The notes under the pieces were generated by a model, which saw only the letters and a program-made list of their open reading frames with translations, was not told the DNA's origin and made no database searches. Positions 7,475 through 13,204 of a stretch of 35,338 bases of DNA are shown in pieces (position 1 is the stretch's first letter; every line of letters starts with the position of its first letter). The stretch comes from Candidatus Dormiibacterota bacterium. Its GTDB lineage: Bacteria; Chloroflexota; Dormibacteria; Aeolococcales; Bog-877. The stretch spans positions 1 through 35,338 of the forward strand of contig DAHUZL010000056.1 in NCBI GenBank assembly GCA_027306655.1. The letters are read 5' to 3'. The translations under genes and the position numbers were made by a program.

Positions 7475-8086
7475 TCAGCCGCGGTTCGCGGGCTCGGCCG
7501 CGGGGGCCTGGCGGCCCCGCCAGAACCACCCGACCACGATCGCCACCACCACCACCGCCAGGACCACCGCGATGGTCCCGATCGGGCCCGAGAACCTCGT
7601 GTAGTTGCGGCCCACCGCGTAGCCCCCGGCGGCCAGGGCGGCCGACCAGACCAGGGATCCGGCCAGGGTGAGACCGGCGAATCGGACCAGGTCGAGCCGG
7701 GCCAGCCCGGCCGGGAACGAGATGTAGGTCCGCACCACCGGCAGCACACGGCCCACCAGGACCGCCACCGATCCGCGGCGCCGGAACCATCGGTCGGCCA
7801 GCTCCAGGTGGGTGGGCCGGATTCCGATCCATCGGCCCGGCCCGAGGAGGAGGGGCTCGCCGAGCCAGGCCGCGAGCCCGTAGGCGACCAGCGATCCGAC
7901 CAGGTTCCCGAGCCCCCCGGCGACGATCGCCGCCGCCAGGTTGAGGTGACCGAGCGCGGCAAGTGCCCCCGCCACCGGCATGATCACCTCGCTCGGGAAC
8001 GGGACGGCGCAGCTCTCGGCCGCCATCAGCAGGAAGACGGCGACCAGCCCGTAGTGGTCGACGAACTGGATCAGCGCGTGGGTCAT
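7475..8086 (-). CDS. DedA/SNARE-associated family membrane protein
   Basis: The 203-residue product matches the DedA (VTT) family. Residues FLLMAAESCAVPFPSEVIMPVAGALAALG carry the conserved E-x-x-x-x-x-F/P-P-S-E-x-x-x-P motif. Further on comes GRVLPVVRTYISFPAGLARL, the conserved (F/G)-R-x-x-P-x-x-R-x-x-x-x-x-x-A-G signature. Several hydrophobic helices and a C-terminal segment (TIAVVLAVVVVAIVVGWFW) follow. Family members act in the cytoplasmic membrane as lipid carrier recyclers, for example undecaprenyl phosphate flippases. The ATG overlaps the stop of the glutamine amidotransferase by ATGA. It is last in a minus-strand group and converges with the histidine kinase across 41 bp. Confidence 0.9.
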   Translation of the reverse strand: MTHALIQFVDHYGLVAVFLLMAAESCAVPFPSEVIMPVAGALAALGHLNLAAAIVAGGLGNLVGSLVAYGLAAWLGEPLLLGPGRWIGIRPTHLELADRWFRRRGSVAVLVGRVLPVVRTYISFPAGLARLDLVRFAGLTLAGSLVWSAALAAGGYAVGRNYTRFSGPIGTIAVVLAVVVVAIVVGWFWRGRQAPAAEPANRG

Positions 8087-8832
8087 GCGGCGGCCGCGCG
8101 GCGGGCCTGCACCAGCTCGGCGTACCCCTGGAAGAGGGCGTGGCGAAGCGTGCGCAGCGCCGCCAGCCGCGCCGCCGCCGCCGCCAGCAGCCCCCCGGCG
8201 CCGCCCGCGGCGAGCGCGGCCTCGGCGGGGGCTTCCCGCACCCACGCCGCCACCTCGCGGATCCCCACCTCGGGGTGGAACTGGACCCCGTGGGCGCGGG
8301 CGCCGAGGCGGAAGGCCTGGACCGGGTAGGCAGCCGACCGAGCCAGCACCACCGCGCCCGCCGGCGGCTCGCAACCGTCCTCGTGCCAGGACAGTGGGGC
8401 GAACCGGGCGGGGGCCCGGCCGAGGAGGGGATCGTCGGCCCCGGCGGCCAGCCTCTCGACCGGAACGAAGCCGACCTCCCAGTCCCGGCCCCGGAAGACC
8501 CGTCCGCCGCCCGCCACCGCCAGCAGCTGGGCACCGAGGCAGATCCCGAGGACCGGGAGGTCGGCGGCGAGGGCGCGCTCCAGGAGGCGCACCTCGGCGT
8601 CCCGGGACGGGAAGCCGTCCACCGAGCGCGCCGACATCGCCCCCCCCAGCACCACCACGCCGTCGAGGCCGCGCACGGTCGCCGGCGGCGGCCCGTCGCA
8701 CCCCGTCCGGTGCAGCCGCGGGGCCAGCCCGGCTCGGCGGAGGGCGCGGCCGAGGGCGCCGGGCGGGTCGTCCGGGGAGTGCTCCACCACCAGCACCGTG
8801 GGGGCGGCCGCGGGCCGGGCTGCCAGGGTCAT
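8083..8832 (-). CDS. Class I glutamine amidotransferase (GMP synthase-like subfamily)
   Basis: The 249-residue product has the GATase1 triad: nucleophile C98 in GICLGAQLLA, then H186 and E188 in GVQFHPEVG. An oxyanion strand (VVLGGAMSA) precedes them. Stand-alone members of this group resemble the glutaminase half of GMP synthase and release ammonia from glutamine or gamma-glutamyl compounds for an unknown acceptor. The open frame begins at a GTG at 8850. The ATG at 8832 is preferred because TAAGCT lies seven bases before it, close to the leaderless pattern. The stop overlaps the DedA start by four bases. No obvious synthetase partner is adjacent. Confidence 0.88.
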   Translation of the reverse strand: MTLAARPAAAPTVLVVEHSPDDPPGALGRALRRAGLAPRLHRTGCDGPPPATVRGLDGVVVLGGAMSARSVDGFPSRDAEVRLLERALAADLPVLGICLGAQLLAVAGGGRVFRGRDWEVGFVPVERLAAGADDPLLGRAPARFAPLSWHEDGCEPPAGAVVLARSAAYPVQAFRLGARAHGVQFHPEVGIREVAAWVREAPAEAALAAGGAGGLLAAAAARLAALRTLRHALFQGYAELVQARRAAAA

Positions 8833-8881
8833 CCGCCGTAGCTTACGCACACCGGGAGGGCGGCCCGGGGCCCGGAGCCCC

Positions 8882-10525
8882 TCAGCGGACGCCCGCCAGC
8901 TGCACCGCCTTGACCACCAGGAGCAGTGCGGCGACCCCGAGATACCCGCGCAGGGCCCACATCCCGAGCGTGCGCCCGCGGGACCAGCGGGGCCGGGCCA
9001 GGAGCGCCAGCGGCGGCATCCGCCAGGTCATCCGCTCCGCGCGCGGCACCGGCGGCGCTCCGTGGTCGCCCTGGCGCAGGGTCATCACGGCCCCGCCGGC
9101 CAGCAGGCACAGCAGCATCACCCCGGTGAGGACCGCGAACAGCAGACCCACGTTGAGCGAGGAGTCGAGCGTCGAGAGCACCAGGATGAGGGAGAGGACC
9201 AGCAGCACGCCCACGATGAAGCTGGCGACCAGGTTGAGCCAGCGGGCGTTGACCCAGGGGCCGAGGACCTCTCGGTCGTTGCAGAGCAGGAGCAGGAACA
9301 CGGTCGCGCTCGGCAGCAGCACCCCCGCCAGCGCCTGCACCGCGGTGGTCACCACTCCGAGGGGGGCGTTGGGCACCAGCACCACCGCGGCGGCCACCAG
9401 CACCATCGCCGAGTAGCTGCCGTAGAAGACGCGGGCCTCGGCGAAGCGGCGGTGGAGGGAGTGGCGGAGGCCGAAGACGTCGCCGAAGGCGTACGACGTC
9501 GCCAGCGTCACCGCGCTGGCGCCGATCACCGACGCGACCAGCAACACGACCGCGAACATCGCCCCCGCCGCCCCGCTGACGTGCCGGGCGATCCCCTTCG
9601 CCACCTGGCCGGCGTTGACGAAGTGGCCGGCTGCGGCGGTGCCCTGGAAGGCGTGGGCGGCCGCGATCATGAGCGCGGCCGCCCCGACGATGACCACCAC
9701 CGCGCCGATCACGGTGTCGGCCCGCTCGTAGGCGATCCAGCGCGGAGTGATCCGCTTGTCGATCACATTGGACTGCTGGAAGAACAGCTGCCAGGGGGCG
9801 ACGGTGGTGCCGACGATGGCGATGATCAGCAGCACCGCGGTGGAGGTGAATCCGTGGGCCACGCTGGGCACCGCGAGTCCGCGGGCGACGGCGCCCGGGG
9901 CGGGATGGCTGAGCACCGCCAGCGGCACGACCAGGAGGCTGCCGACGACGAACACCAGCATGGCGCGCTCCCAGCGGCGGAAGTTGCCGCTGGCGATGAC
10001 GGCGACCAGCAGCACCGCCGCCAGCGGCACCGCCAGGTAGGGGGAGACGCCAAAGTAGCCCGCCGCCAGGCGCACCCCGATGAACTCGGTGACGATGGTG
10101 AGGAAGTTGAGGACGAAGAGGTCGCCGACGGAGAAGGAGACCCAGAAGCGGCCGAACCGCTCCTGGATGAGGCGGGCGTGGCCCACCCCGGTGACGGCGC
10201 CCAGCCGCACCACCATCTCCTGGTTCACGATCAGGACGGGGATCAGCAGGACCAGGGTCCAGAGCAGGCTGGGCCCGTAGTTCTGCCCCGCCTGCGCGTA
10301 GGTGGCGACGCCCCCGGCGTCGTTGTCCCCCACCATGACGATGAGCCCCGGCCCAACGATCGCCAGCAGCGCGATCAGGCGGCCCCGCCAGCTCCGCCGC
10401 TCGCCCACGTCGGCCATCCGGATCGTGCCGAGCGCGCCGCGGATGTCGCCCACGTGGGCGCTGTCGAGCACCGCCGACCCGGGTGGCGTCGGTGGCGTCG
10501 CCGCGGCGACCACGGGCTCAGGCAT
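8882..10525 (-). CDS. NRAMP-related divalent metal transporter (non-canonical motifs)
   Basis: The 547-residue product has the many hydrophobic helices of the NRAMP fold. In TM1 the canonical D-P-G-N is replaced by GDNDAGGVATYAQAGQNYG. In TM6 the canonical M-P-H is replaced by GTTVAPWQLFFQQS. These replacements are known from NRAMP-related magnesium/manganese carriers, in which the metal site loses the methionine that selects transition metals. The protein is therefore likely to move Mg or Mn ions. A 35-residue Ala/Pro-rich N-terminus precedes TM1. The gene lies downstream of an MgtE_N/CBS protein on the same strand and has its own predicted promoter and a roughly 310-nt leader with an 11-bp stem. 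The exact ion is an inference. Confidence 0.88.
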   Translation of the reverse strand: MPEPVVAAATPPTPPGSAVLDSAHVGDIRGALGTIRMADVGERRSWRGRLIALLAIVGPGLIVMVGDNDAGGVATYAQAGQNYGPSLLWTLVLLIPVLIVNQEMVVRLGAVTGVGHARLIQERFGRFWVSFSVGDLFVLNFLTIVTEFIGVRLAAGYFGVSPYLAVPLAAVLLVAVIASGNFRRWERAMLVFVVGSLLVVPLAVLSHPAPGAVARGLAVPSVAHGFTSTAVLLIIAIVGTTVAPWQLFFQQSNVIDKRITPRWIAYERADTVIGAVVVIVGAAALMIAAAHAFQGTAAAGHFVNAGQVAKGIARHVSGAAGAMFAVVLLVASVIGASAVTLATSYAFGDVFGLRHSLHRRFAEARVFYGSYSAMVLVAAAVVLVPNAPLGVVTTAVQALAGVLLPSATVFLLLLCNDREVLGPWVNARWLNLVASFIVGVLLVLSLILVLSTLDSSLNVGLLFAVLTGVMLLCLLAGGAVMTLRQGDHGAPPVPRAERMTWRMPPLALLARPRWSRGRTLGMWALRGYLGVAALLLVVKAVQLAGVR

Positions 10526-10731
10526 GCCACCATCCCCGGCGGGCCGCGCCCGGTCGGGCCCCGCACGCCGACGCGCGGCCGGGACCCAACCACGGTCCCA
10601 CCGCCGCGGGCGGCGACCGGAAACCCTCGCTGCTCATGGCACCACTCCTCACGCGACCCCATGCCGAGGCGGTCCCGGCGTGGGGAGGGGAGGGGCGGCC
10701 GATCAGCCGGGGCCCGCCCTCCGATGGCGCA

Positions 10732-10782
10732 AGGACCGCATGACGGTGACGGGGCGTCTACTGCCGGGGTCCATGCGGTCCT
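10732..10782 (-). other. Long inverted repeat in the leader of the NRAMP-like gene
   Basis: AGGACCGCATG (10732-10742) and CATGCGGTCCT (10772-10782) are perfect 11-bp complements around a 29-base loop. The stem lies in the predicted untranslated leader of the metal transporter (about +58 to +108 from the predicted start). No T-run follows, so it is unlikely to be a simple terminator. I could not match the leader to the M-box or yybP-ykoY consensus. Confidence 0.55.
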
Positions 10783-10845
10783 CTTCCTTCAGAAACCCAG
10801 GGGCGCAGCACCGCACGGGCATGGGCCCGCCGGGCGTTCCGGCTG

Positions 10846-10851
10846 AGTGTA
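10846..10851 (-). promoter_or_regulatory. Candidate -10 element for the NRAMP-like gene
   Basis: On the minus strand TACACT, identical to the -10 candidates at 16121 and 31232. It would start transcription near 10839 and leave a leader of about 310 nt before the ATG at 10525. The intergenic stretch 10526-10897 otherwise holds no gene. Confidence 0.45.
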
Positions 10852-10897
10852 CCGCCGGGCCGGAGCCGGGGCAACCGCTCCAGCGCCTCGCCGGCGC

Positions 10898-12238
10898 TCA
10901 CCCCTCCGCCTCGCCGCGCTGGCGACGCCGCCAGTCGGGGGGGATCATCGCCTCCAGGAGGTCGTCCACCGTGACCAGACCGATGAAGCGGTCGTCGTCG
11001 TCGACGACCGGCAGCGCGGGGAGGTTGTAGTCGGTCATGACCAGTGCGACCGAGGGTAGGTCGGCGGCGCCGTGGAGCCTCGCCGTGACGGCGGTGGCGA
11101 GGGTGGTCGCCGCGGCCCCGGCGGGTGCGCGCACAAGGTCCGCCAGCGGCACGGTGGACACGACCCGGCCCCCCGGATCGACCACCACCACCACCGATCC
11201 CGCCTGCGAGGGGAGGTCGTCCGCGGCCCGCACCGCCTGAAGGGCCTGCTCGACGGTGGCATCGGCAGCGACGGTGACCGCCTGGGTGGTCATCATCCCG
11301 CCCGCCGTCTCCGGATGGTAGGCGAGCAGCCGGCGCAGGGTCGTCTGCCGGGCCGGGGGCAGCAGCTGGAGGATCGCCATCCTGCGGTCCTGGTCGATCT
11401 TGGCGATCAGGTCGGCGGCGTCGTCGGCGGCCATCTCGCCCAGGAGCTCGGCGGCCTCGGGGTCGGAGCGCTCCTCGAAGAAGCGCCGCTGGTGCTCGTC
11501 GTCGAGCTCCTCGAACACGTCGGCCTCGAGGTCAGGGTCGTCGGCGACCGCGTCGATGATCTCGGTCCCCTCCCGGTGGGACGCGTGCTCGATCAGGTCG
11601 GCGATCTGGGCCGGGTGGAGTCGACGGAGGCGGCGCAGGGGGATGGGCAGGTGGGGGCCGGGGACGTGGCCGGTGAACGGCTCGATGTCCGACCAGTCCA
11701 CGAGCCGGCGCGGACTGACCATCCCGGACCGGCTCCGCCACGGGAGCGCGCGGTGGAGAGCGCTGAGGCGGGTGGGGTCCACGGCCACGATGTGCCAGCG
11801 TCCGTCGATCGGGGCGAGGGCGAGGTCGTTGGCGTGGATGAGGGTGCCCAGCCGGACGTCGATCAGCCGCCGTCCGATCACGTCGTCATCGATCAGGACC
11901 TCGCCGGAGCGGCGCTCGAAGGGGCCGAGGTTGACGGAGTCGCCGGTGAGCTGCACTCGGAAGGGCTCCAACGGCCCAACCTGGCCGATGGGCAGGAAGA
12001 GCTCCCGCTGGCCGATGCGCACGCGCAGGCCGGTGACCGGCGGGTAGGCGCCCTCGGCGATCCGGGCGATGACGTCGCGCACCCGGCCGAGGGGGCGGCC
12101 CCGGCGGTCGAGGAGGGCGGCGTGGGCGACGGTGGTGGCGCTGACCAGGCTGCCGGCCCATCGCTCCAACGATCCAGGGCCGGGAGTCCGCTGGAGGGCC
12201 GCCCCGTCCCTCGCGTCGTCGCGGGGCGCGTCGCTCAT
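10898..12238 (-). CDS. PRC-barrel / MgtE N-terminal / CBS-pair regulatory protein
   Basis: The 446-residue soluble protein has three parts. Residues about 25-180 look like PRC-barrel strands (LLDRRGRPLGRVRDVIAR, GRRLIDVRLGTLIHANDLAL). Residues about 210-325 are the superhelical MgtE_N domain (LHPAQIADLIEHA, DVFEELDDEHQRRFFEERSDPEAAELLGEMAADDAADLIAKI). Then a CBS pair begins TAGGMMTTQAVTVAADATVEQAL and ends VMTDYNLPALPVVDDDDRFIGLVTVDDLLEAM. In MgtE, this N-CBS module senses cytosolic Mg and gates the channel. Here no transmembrane channel domain is attached; a metal transporter of another fold is the next gene on the same strand. The ATG has GGAGG five bases upstream. It probably gates or tunes that transporter, which is inference. 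Confidence 0.9.
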   Translation of the reverse strand: MSDAPRDDARDGAALQRTPGPGSLERWAGSLVSATTVAHAALLDRRGRPLGRVRDVIARIAEGAYPPVTGLRVRIGQRELFLPIGQVGPLEPFRVQLTGDSVNLGPFERRSGEVLIDDDVIGRRLIDVRLGTLIHANDLALAPIDGRWHIVAVDPTRLSALHRALPWRSRSGMVSPRRLVDWSDIEPFTGHVPGPHLPIPLRRLRRLHPAQIADLIEHASHREGTEIIDAVADDPDLEADVFEELDDEHQRRFFEERSDPEAAELLGEMAADDAADLIAKIDQDRRMAILQLLPPARQTTLRRLLAYHPETAGGMMTTQAVTVAADATVEQALQAVRAADDLPSQAGSVVVVVDPGGRVVSTVPLADLVRAPAGAAATTLATAVTARLHGAADLPSVALVMTDYNLPALPVVDDDDRFIGLVTVDDLLEAMIPPDWRRRQRGEAEG

Positions 12239-12339
12239 GGTGGCCTCCAGGGGCTCACGCCCGCCCGCGACCCGACCGGGGCCCGGCCCCGGGAATCTCG
12301 CCGGCTGCGGTGGTGGGGGTGAGCCGGTGTGCTGCCGCG

Positions 12340-12345
12340 ATTATC
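12340..12345 (-). promoter_or_regulatory. Candidate -10 element for the MgtE_N/CBS gene
   Basis: Minus-strand GATAAT, leaving a leader of roughly 95 nt that contains a GC-rich palindrome near 12276-12292 and ends in a GGAGG site. It faces the opposing promoter for the PIG-L gene. Confidence 0.4.
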
Positions 12346-12401
12346 GGCCTCCCGCGCCTCCCGGGGGCCGATCGCGCCCGACCGCCGGCCGGCGCCGCCC
12401 G

Positions 12402-12407
12402 TATCCT
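12402..12407 (+). promoter_or_regulatory. Candidate -10 element for the PIG-L gene
   Basis: TATCCT with a GTG five bases downstream at 12413 that is in frame with the PIG-L gene. Translation from there would add 26 poorly conserved-looking residues, so it is treated as a promoter with a leader of about 75 nt. A leaderless start here cannot be excluded. Confidence 0.4.
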
Positions 12408-12490
12408 GGCCGGTGGCGGCCCGCCGGGGCGGGCTCGCGAGTCAGCCGGCGATCGCGGCGGGGCGCCCGGGGCGGCCCCGAGGAGGCCCT

Positions 12491-13204
12491 GTGGCGGAAC
12501 GCGACCCCATCCCGATCCAGCGTGCGATGGTCATCGTCGCCCATCCGGATGACGCCGAGTTCGGCTGCTCCGCCACGGTGGCGAAATGGGTGAGCCAGGG
12601 GATCGCCGTCACCTACGTCGTCTGCACCGACGGCGGGGCCGGCTCGGCCGACCCCTCGCTGACGGCGGCGGAGCTGCCCCGACGACGGGAGGAGGAGCAG
12701 CGCCGAGCGGCCGACGTCCTGGGGGTCGCGCGGGTGGAGTTCCTGGGCCGGCGCGACGGCGAGCTGCTCCCGACCCTGGAGCTGCGCCGCGACCTGACCC
12801 GCCTCATCCGCCTCCACCGGCCCGACCGCGTGGTCTGCCAGAACGCAGTCCGAACCTACTCCAACATCTACGGCAACCACCCCGACCACCTCGCCGCCGG
12901 GCAGGCCGCGATGGAGGCGATCTACCCCACCGCCCGCAATCCGCGCGCCTTCCCCGAGCTGCTGGCGGAGGGGCTCCAGCCCCACCTGGTCCGCGAGGTG
13001 TGGATCACCGGTACTGACCAGCCCAACCACGCTGAGGACGTCGGCGGCTTCGTCGACAAGAAGATCGAGGCCCTGATGCAGCATCGCAGCCAGATGGGCG
13101 AGGCCGACCGGGTCGCCGAACGGGTCCGGCAGCGGATGCAGGACGCGGGGCGGCCCAGCGGCCTCGCCTACGCCGAGGCCTTCCGGCGGCTGTCGGCGGA
13201 GTAG
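12491..13204 (+). CDS. PIG-L/LmbE family deacetylase
   Basis: The 237-residue product has the LmbE/PIG-L zinc site: AHPDD near the N-terminus (MVIVAHPDDAEFGCSATVAKW) and a second histidine in YGNHPDHLAAG. Enzymes of this fold remove N-acetyl groups from amino sugars, for example in mycothiol or bacillithiol synthesis or glycan turnover. GTG at 12491 is chosen because AGGAGG at 12481-12486 precedes it by four bases and the first beta strand then begins about residue 12, as usual in the family. The dehydrogenase-like gene begins two bases after its stop. The substrate is unknown; no mycothiol or bacillithiol genes are next to it. Confidence 0.9.
   Translation: MAERDPIPIQRAMVIVAHPDDAEFGCSATVAKWVSQGIAVTYVVCTDGGAGSADPSLTAAELPRRREEEQRRAADVLGVARVEFLGRRDGELLPTLELRRDLTRLIRLHRPDRVVCQNAVRTYSNIYGNHPDHLAAGQAAMEAIYPTARNPRAFPELLAEGLQPHLVREVWITGTDQPNHAEDVGGFVDKKIEALMQHRSQMGEADRVAERVRQRMQDAGRPSGLAYAEAFRRLSAE

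Follow-up and report, generated by a model that had tools for sequence, protein, structure and literature searches.

The 35,338-nucleotide (nt) stretch of DNA analysed here (contig DAHUZL010000056.1 of assembly GCA_027306655.1, from a Candidatus Dormiibacterota bacterium; hereafter the window) contains two neighboring genes that probably encode a Mg2+ carrier and a detached sensor of the MgtE type holding this carrier in check. Judged from sequence, the carrier is of the NRMT type and would most likely import Mg2+, with Mn2+ as a possible substrate. The sensor gene (10898..12238, minus strand) encodes a soluble protein of 446 aa with the architecture PRC-MgtE_N-CBS-CBS, as assigned from the open reading frame (ORF), Pfam and AlphaFold2. 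It is followed after an intergenic gap of 372 nt by the Nramp-related carrier gene (8882..10525, minus strand; 547 aa), recognized by PF01566 and its matches to EleNRMT. Both ORFs sit where an earlier note, made from the DNA letters alone, had placed them. The observation made in that note is correct and the arrangement is a known one; the new and bolder points are a small ORF in the leader of the carrier gene and a swap of the carrier for a DUF1003 protein.

The carrier matched PF01566 with 251.2 bits, the cut-off being 29.8, while three NCBIfam MntH/Nramp models matched below their cut-offs. The NRMT signature is DxxG in transmembrane helix 1 (TM1) and TxxA/T in TM6, replacing DxxN and A/CxxM (PMC8806188, cited from excerpts like the other papers below). 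The alignment located D69-A-G-G72 in TM1 (10310..10321, minus strand) and T240-T-V-A-P-W245 in TM6 (9791..9808, minus strand), giving the DxxG-TxxA pair D69-A-G-G72 and T240-T-V-A243. The TM6 histidine is replaced by tryptophan, as reported for EleNRMT (PMC8806188). The absence of the DPGN and MPH motifs, pointed out in the earlier note, was confirmed by these sequences (DAGG and TTVAPW); Nramp-related proteins lacking both motifs have also been described in a preprint (PMC12873925). Among solved structures, EleNRMT (7qia) was the top sequence match (2.1e-56, 195 bits), the next solved carrier reaching 85 bits. Foldseek likewise ranked 7qia first for the structure model of the carrier (mean predicted local distance difference test (pLDDT) 84.9), with a TM-score of 0.88 on the target. 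By its signature and its best matches in sequence and fold, the carrier probably belongs to the NRMT type, members of which transport Mg2+ and Mn2+, both being moved by EleNRMT (PMC8806188). A broken or degenerate MntH was ruled out by the complete signature and by EleNRMT as the top match.

Two further segments are traits of the carrier clade of the window and are lacking in more distant aligned carriers. The first is a clade-conserved N-terminal cytosolic segment, AVLDxAHxGDIxGAxGTI (10418..10474, minus strand), which forms a beta hairpin in the model and is a possible docking site for the sensor. The second is a C-terminal extension of residues 459-547 (8885..9151, minus strand), seen in the alignment and the model, in which two modeled helices (459-486 and 516-545) flank a conserved W-x-MP loop.

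In the sensor, Pfam assigned MgtE_N to residues 207-310 (11309..11620, minus strand; 73.8 bits) and a CBS pair to about residues 311-432 (10943..11308, minus strand; 60.4 bits). This MgtE_N domain is the sole one in its genome (92% complete), in which no match to the MgtE membrane domain PF01769 was obtained and a search for CorA found none. The existence of a separate MgtE_N/CBS protein without a channel, as claimed in the earlier note, was thereby borne out. A truncated MgtE channel was ruled out, as the length and architecture of the sensor recur in the aligned relatives and the genome lacks PF01769. The PRC-barrel that the note had added to this module stood in part: Pfam made no call in the window copy, whereas PF05239 matched 20 of 29 aligned relatives (in L024 at residues 2-55 with 30 bits), and the AlphaFold2 model built from 29 relatives (mean pLDDT 86.2) has a strand-rich, confident N-terminal third. 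The PRC-barrel-like region covers about residues 41-154 (11777..12118, minus strand). The ten top Foldseek matches of the sensor model were all MgtE cytosolic domains, and a second structural alignment superposed the C-terminal two thirds of the sensor on such domains with Z of 20-22.

We aligned 104 sensors with the corresponding stretch of MgtE, taking the ligand numbers from PMC5882242 and the ATP contacts from PMC5529423. Most of the acidic residues bridging Mg2+ in MgtE have acidic counterparts in the window sensor. D240 aligns with MgtE E59 and is Asp in 104/104 sensors, D272 and D276 align with D91 and D95 (each 103/104), D426 aligns with D247 (kept in 104/104), and E429 aligns with D250 at a position that is acidic in 101/104. 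Mutating these acids of the MgtE N and CBS domains is reported to stop the closure of MgtE by Mg2+ (PMC5882242). The sensor ends 17 residues past the D250 equivalent in a basic P..WRRR tail, and the alignment with MgtE found no counterpart of the plug helix.

The two genes belong together well beyond the window. In a survey of the phylum, 204 of 301 genomes gave a sensor-like match, MgtE channels counted in. Of the 29 highest-ranking other loci with a sensor (L004-L032), 28 had an Nramp gene within the 1.5-kb flanks, as had 8 of 11 weaker ones, a count that omits two loci of the MgtE type and a duplicate of L004; the three misses were L038, where the sensor starts at the contig end, L040 and L045. 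The co-occurrence in other genomes, whose absence the earlier note had named as a ground for dropping its idea, therefore holds. The gene order is inverted in L020-L022, and sensor and carrier are divergent in L039; the linkage is thus not mere inherited order. The pairing is real but has been known since 2014, when Shin et al. reported that most NrmT genes neighbor a homologue of the MgtE cytoplasmic domain and proposed cytoplasmic feedback or chaperoning by this neighbor (PMC4072509). That a Mg sensor has been re-used for an unrelated carrier, as the earlier note had put it, is thus the likely meaning of the locus but not an unexplained one, NRMT carriers being known and the pairing published. 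Direct proof of contact by gene fusion was dropped as an approach, since four loci whose frames are unusually long were read and none of them encodes a fused sensor-carrier protein.

Many carriers of the window's clade are preceded by 200-450 nt. In the window, this leader carries a small ORF, MDPGSRRPVTVMRSLRHRRAGPG (10703-10774, minus strand), with a Shine-Dalgarno-like site and AGT at codon 5. The ORF of the same-genus locus L128, MEPGSRRPLTVAWSSRPRRLPAG, is 87% identical to it over the first 30 nt, while the identity in the other 30-nt blocks compared was 17-70%. Similar ORFs recur in other leaders, among them MDGGDSPQSRQLTGRPVSR, MEGDDSPNPRQLRARPRGGLTD, MESDDPLSSNSARASQAR and MDGSSRPPGNPSPARALSLS. 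A relaxed pattern, set after reading the earlier leader sets, found such an ORF in 34 of 50 leaders against 0.095 in shuffles, and none on the reverse strand. A criterion of acidic residues and proline, chosen once the first 21 leaders had been read, was matched in 7/21 (shuffles, 0.66) and, unchanged, in 5/9 new ones. The pattern ^M[DE].[GD], set after reading both sets, was matched in 8/21 and 9/9; 13 of the first 21 leaders were without the ORF. When fixed beforehand, the same pattern was found in 8 of 20 further leaders, one of them through a different ORF (shuffles, 0.40; maximum, 3). The 9 new leaders were what remained of 30 once 18 short gaps and 3 repeats of known loci had been set aside ahead of the count; the distant loci L031 and L069 were likewise taken out of an initial 23. 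Among the 20 further leaders some are closely related, and 28 of the 34 ORFs are distinct in sequence.

The leader ORF belongs to the carrier rather than to the sensor. When 110 genomes of the class were searched with a 20-base version of its start, nine matches came up, all of them immediately ahead of carrier genes; the reversed control gave none in the same genomes. The ORF is retained where the sensor gene lies apart from the carrier (L129) or is transcribed divergently (L168-L175). At loci with short gaps it precedes neither carrier nor sensor (sensor upstreams, 0/11), and in two other sets of sensor upstreams it was found in 1/60 and 1/51, the latter before an MgtE channel gene. A general leader of MgtE channels was rejected as an explanation, with 1 of 30 leaders positive, not above shuffles (mean 0.14). 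That one gene, L200 (the same gene as L044), is the sole one of the 30 MgtE channel genes with a carrier-like leader ORF, MDAGSKPRYPRAVGRPTPR. At another locus (G159, contig C24, 52283-55930), tandem carrier genes each have their own leader ORF start ATGGACGGCGGCGACAGTCC. Upstream of a presumed MgtE channel gene of another family (L043, 3016-4374, minus strand) we also noticed a Shine-Dalgarno site and a small ORF, MSDSDSSPRTKRPYHTARSGPNL, containing AGT AGT, as well as a GC-rich inverted repeat with TTTTT behind it, which by eye resembles an attenuator. A literature search with leader peptide, Nramp, magnesium and MgtL yielded, judged by the titles among the matches listed, no description of such a leader ORF.

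For the conserved stretch, an RNA element, or a site for a sigma factor or RNA-binding protein, that incidentally holds an open frame, in place of a translated peptide switch, falls not far short of an even prospect. Substitutions were spread evenly over the three codon positions (79, 73 and 87 in 26 pairs of related copies), so that the search for peptide selection by codon position was negative and an RNA motif is as possible as a peptide. The codon AGT, found in codons 3-9 of 27 of the 28 distinct ORFs, makes up 3.5% of the serine codons of the carriers themselves (10/288 in ten carrier genes), and the keeping of so rare a codon looks like conservation at the nucleotide level. Set against this, all 34 ORFs start and stop in frame and have a Shine-Dalgarno-like site, and the AGT stays in frame even though it falls at slightly different codons. 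Moreover, the first residues, M-D/E-x-G/D/S, are common to the ORFs, whereas the remainder has diverged.

Further signals surround the small ORF. An M-box (RF00380) was detected directly upstream of the carriers of L005 (121.8 bits) and L129 (123.3 bits), with the small ORF sitting between M-box and carrier, and these carriers are 70-78% identical to that of the window; in total, 2 of 43 scanned loci of this carrier clade had an M-box. In its entirety, the window gap had only a slightly more stable predicted fold than shuffles (z -1.72). The sequence CCTCC starts 11-17 nt past the ORF stop in 17 of 27 leaders. In these 27 leaders the Shine-Dalgarno site of the carrier is predicted to pair with upstream sequence, with a mean of 0.69 against 0.47 in shuffled controls; 0 of 60 control sets reached the observed mean, and 8 of the 27 leaders were below their own control. 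In the window copy neither a carrier Shine-Dalgarno site nor a sequestered site was found, and its leader peptide has one acidic residue (D2), most relatives having at least two in the first seven residues. A second small ORF of 39 aa (10518..10637, minus strand) has a good Shine-Dalgarno-like stretch; its stop falls in the start of the carrier gene (ATGCCTGA), so translation of the carrier may be coupled to it. Sequences resembling a -10 box (TACACT, TAGACT, TAGGGT, TAGAGT and TAGGCT) were seen by eye upstream of the small ORF, at 10800-10897 of the window and in the gaps of L047, L048, L056 and L062, which may point to a separate promoter for the carrier.

Parallels to such a leader are known. 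In mgtQ of Salmonella mgtCBRU, early Asp/Glu codons and a sequestered ribosome site are reported to control mgtB (PMC8092293), and in MgtL of E. coli mgtA, ribosomes are reported to drop off at an EPDP motif under limiting Mg2+ (PMC11282234). We tentatively propose that this clade of NRMT carriers is under an undescribed translational Mg2+ switch, which we regard as possible rather than probable. An ORF of the type MDGGDSP..., with early acidic residues and the rare AGT, would make the behavior of the ribosome at low Mg2+ free or hide the ribosome site of the carrier, as an independent counterpart of mgtQ and MgtL in bacteria other than the enterobacteria. In the same proposal, Mg2+ would control the carrier at the levels of RNA, translation and protein, together with the sensor and, in some relatives, the M-box, and the sensor would later have been passed to DUF1003, which would then be a Mg-related membrane protein.

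The change of partner was seen in a scan of named genomes, of which the best 80 loci were listed (L047-L126); among these, the named sensor nearest to that of the window (52%) comes from a Candidatus Dormiibacterota assembly. The sensor has an Nramp gene beside it in 21 of these listed loci, and in 55 the next same-strand gene comes from one other family, 5-95 bp away in 53 of the 55. The member tested proved to be DUF1003 (PF06210, 126.9 bits), a membrane protein. These loci are from Actinomycetota where named, and a gene for a Mrp-type ATPase often follows the DUF1003 gene. Carrier and DUF1003 occur together at 0 of the 80 listed loci. Four have neither partner (L070, L078, L090 and L114), and L070 and L114 end shortly after the sensor. 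In a tree rooted on MgtE, calculated by a quick method from 60 rows that included 19 of the 55 DUF1003-type rows, the DUF1003-type sensors formed one clade (support 100, including L078) nested among the carrier-paired sensors (branches 85 and 95). This nesting points to the pairing with the carrier as the older one and to one later switch that gave rise to the pairing with DUF1003. These results suggest that DUF1003 is a second membrane partner of the sensor. No M-box was found before DUF1003-type operons in the 8 loci scanned. In a literature search DUF1003 was barely mentioned and no title linked it to magnesium; the matches listed for 'Rv1232c' and 'magnesium' included no relevant one.

Taken together, we consider it fairly probable that the pair works as a carrier with a detached gate. 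At high cytosolic Mg2+, the ion would form a bridge between acids of the N domain and of the CBS dimer, and the regulator would close; the closed regulator would touch the cytosolic segments of the carrier via the PRC barrel or the basic C-terminus, and uptake would slow down. At low Mg2+, the regulator would open and uptake would proceed. The expression of the carrier would be under the separate control of its own leader, through the small ORF and, in two relatives, the M-box. In this proposal we infer the ion moved, the effect of the regulator and the direction of that effect, the surface of contact and what the leader senses.

Several observations weigh against this proposal. MgtE D226 (site Mg5) is replaced by Asn in 80 of the 104 sensors, N405 of the window included, and the ATP contacts Y170, R187 and F227 are replaced in the window clade (V349, A366 and L406 in the window), although the ribose contact D188 is retained as D367. 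The window has no M-box, and its gap gave two Rfam matches, both below the gathering scores. The closest sensor outside the genus of the window (L037 of G045, 8505-9749, minus strand; 65% identical) lacks a carrier gene for 8 kb in both directions. In Acidobacterium capsulatum, the carrier acted mainly as a Mn transporter and a co-expressed partial MgtE gene gave no further rescue (PMC4072509). As the ATP-pocket residues are replaced, coupling to ATP as in MgtE is unlikely in this clade. With the bridging acids kept and the plug helix and most ATP contacts lost, the closing of the N and CBS domains looks intact, while the link to a channel and the link to ATP do not.

It would be possible to read the same pair as a Mn2+ importer with a sensor responding to Mn2+ instead of Mg2+. 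This agrees with the NrmT of A. capsulatum, encoded beside an MgtE-like gene, which is reported to have restored a Mn-transport mutant in full but to have relieved Mg deficiency only when Mg was in the low-millimolar range (PMC4072509), and with the transport of both ions by EleNRMT (PMC8806188). We nevertheless regard a mainly Mn-importing carrier as unlikely, as M-boxes precede the carriers of two relatives, and as the genome, having neither CorA nor an MgtE channel, still needs a route for Mg import (P-type Mg pumps being outside the search).

A sensor that is an independent regulator or chaperone, merely sharing a regulon with the carrier and gating nothing, appears quite improbable. In its favor, the two genes are unlinked in G045, where the carrier (L129, 72% identical) lies on a different contig, preceded by an M-box and a leader ORF; the sensor of Actinomycetota stands beside DUF1003 and a Mrp-type ATPase gene instead; and the four long-frame loci gave no fusion. 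Against it, sensor and carrier are strongly linked whichever gene comes first, the partner that takes the place of the carrier is likewise a membrane protein, and the loss of the plug helix with the N-CBS bridging acids kept is what a detached gating module should look like.

The pair is flanked downstream by an ORF resembling a glutamine amidotransferase on the same strand (8083-8850) and upstream, on the opposite strand, by an ORF of the PIG-L/LmbE type (12329-13204).

For the MgtE-like partner of NRMT carriers, feedback or chaperoning was put forward in 2014 (PMC4072509). The present comparison makes its role testable by naming the sensor acids that should be needed and two candidate docking segments of the carrier. 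DUF1003 is a family of unknown function, and the partner swap offers a natural comparison for the role of the sensor. Should Mg2+ be sensed by the leader ORF, the control of Mg transporters through leaders would reach well beyond enterobacteria.

Compared with the MgtE Mg2+ channel, the sensor shares the cytosolic N-CBS fold and most of the bridging Mg ligands, whereas it lacks PF01769 and the plug helix, has an added PRC-like region, and has D226 replaced and, in the window clade, the ATP pocket as well. The M-box (ykoK, RF00380) stands ahead of the small ORF in two relatives and is absent from the window and from 41 of the 43 loci of its relatives. The leader may resemble mgtQ and MgtL in placing a small ORF with early acidic codons ahead of a probable Mg transporter gene, and mgtQ, as described in the excerpts, also in the position of the ORF between two operon genes and perhaps in the sequestered ribosome site of the transporter, which by prediction may apply to most relatives here. 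It differs from both in its sequence family, its carrier and its phyla; moreover, the peptide of the window copy contains just one acidic residue, and sequestration of a ribosome site was not detected there. With the NRMT carriers (Shin et al. 2014; EleNRMT, Ramanadane et al. 2022), the window carrier shares PF01566, the DxxG-TxxA site, the replacement of the TM6 His by Trp and a neighbor with the MgtE cytoplasmic domain. Unlike the neighbor gene in the excerpts of Shin et al., where no such domain is mentioned, the window sensor has a PRC-like domain. The window system is further distinguished from the NRMT carriers by a leader with a small ORF and without an M-box, and by the two extra C-terminal helices and the conserved N-terminal cytosolic segment of its carrier clade.

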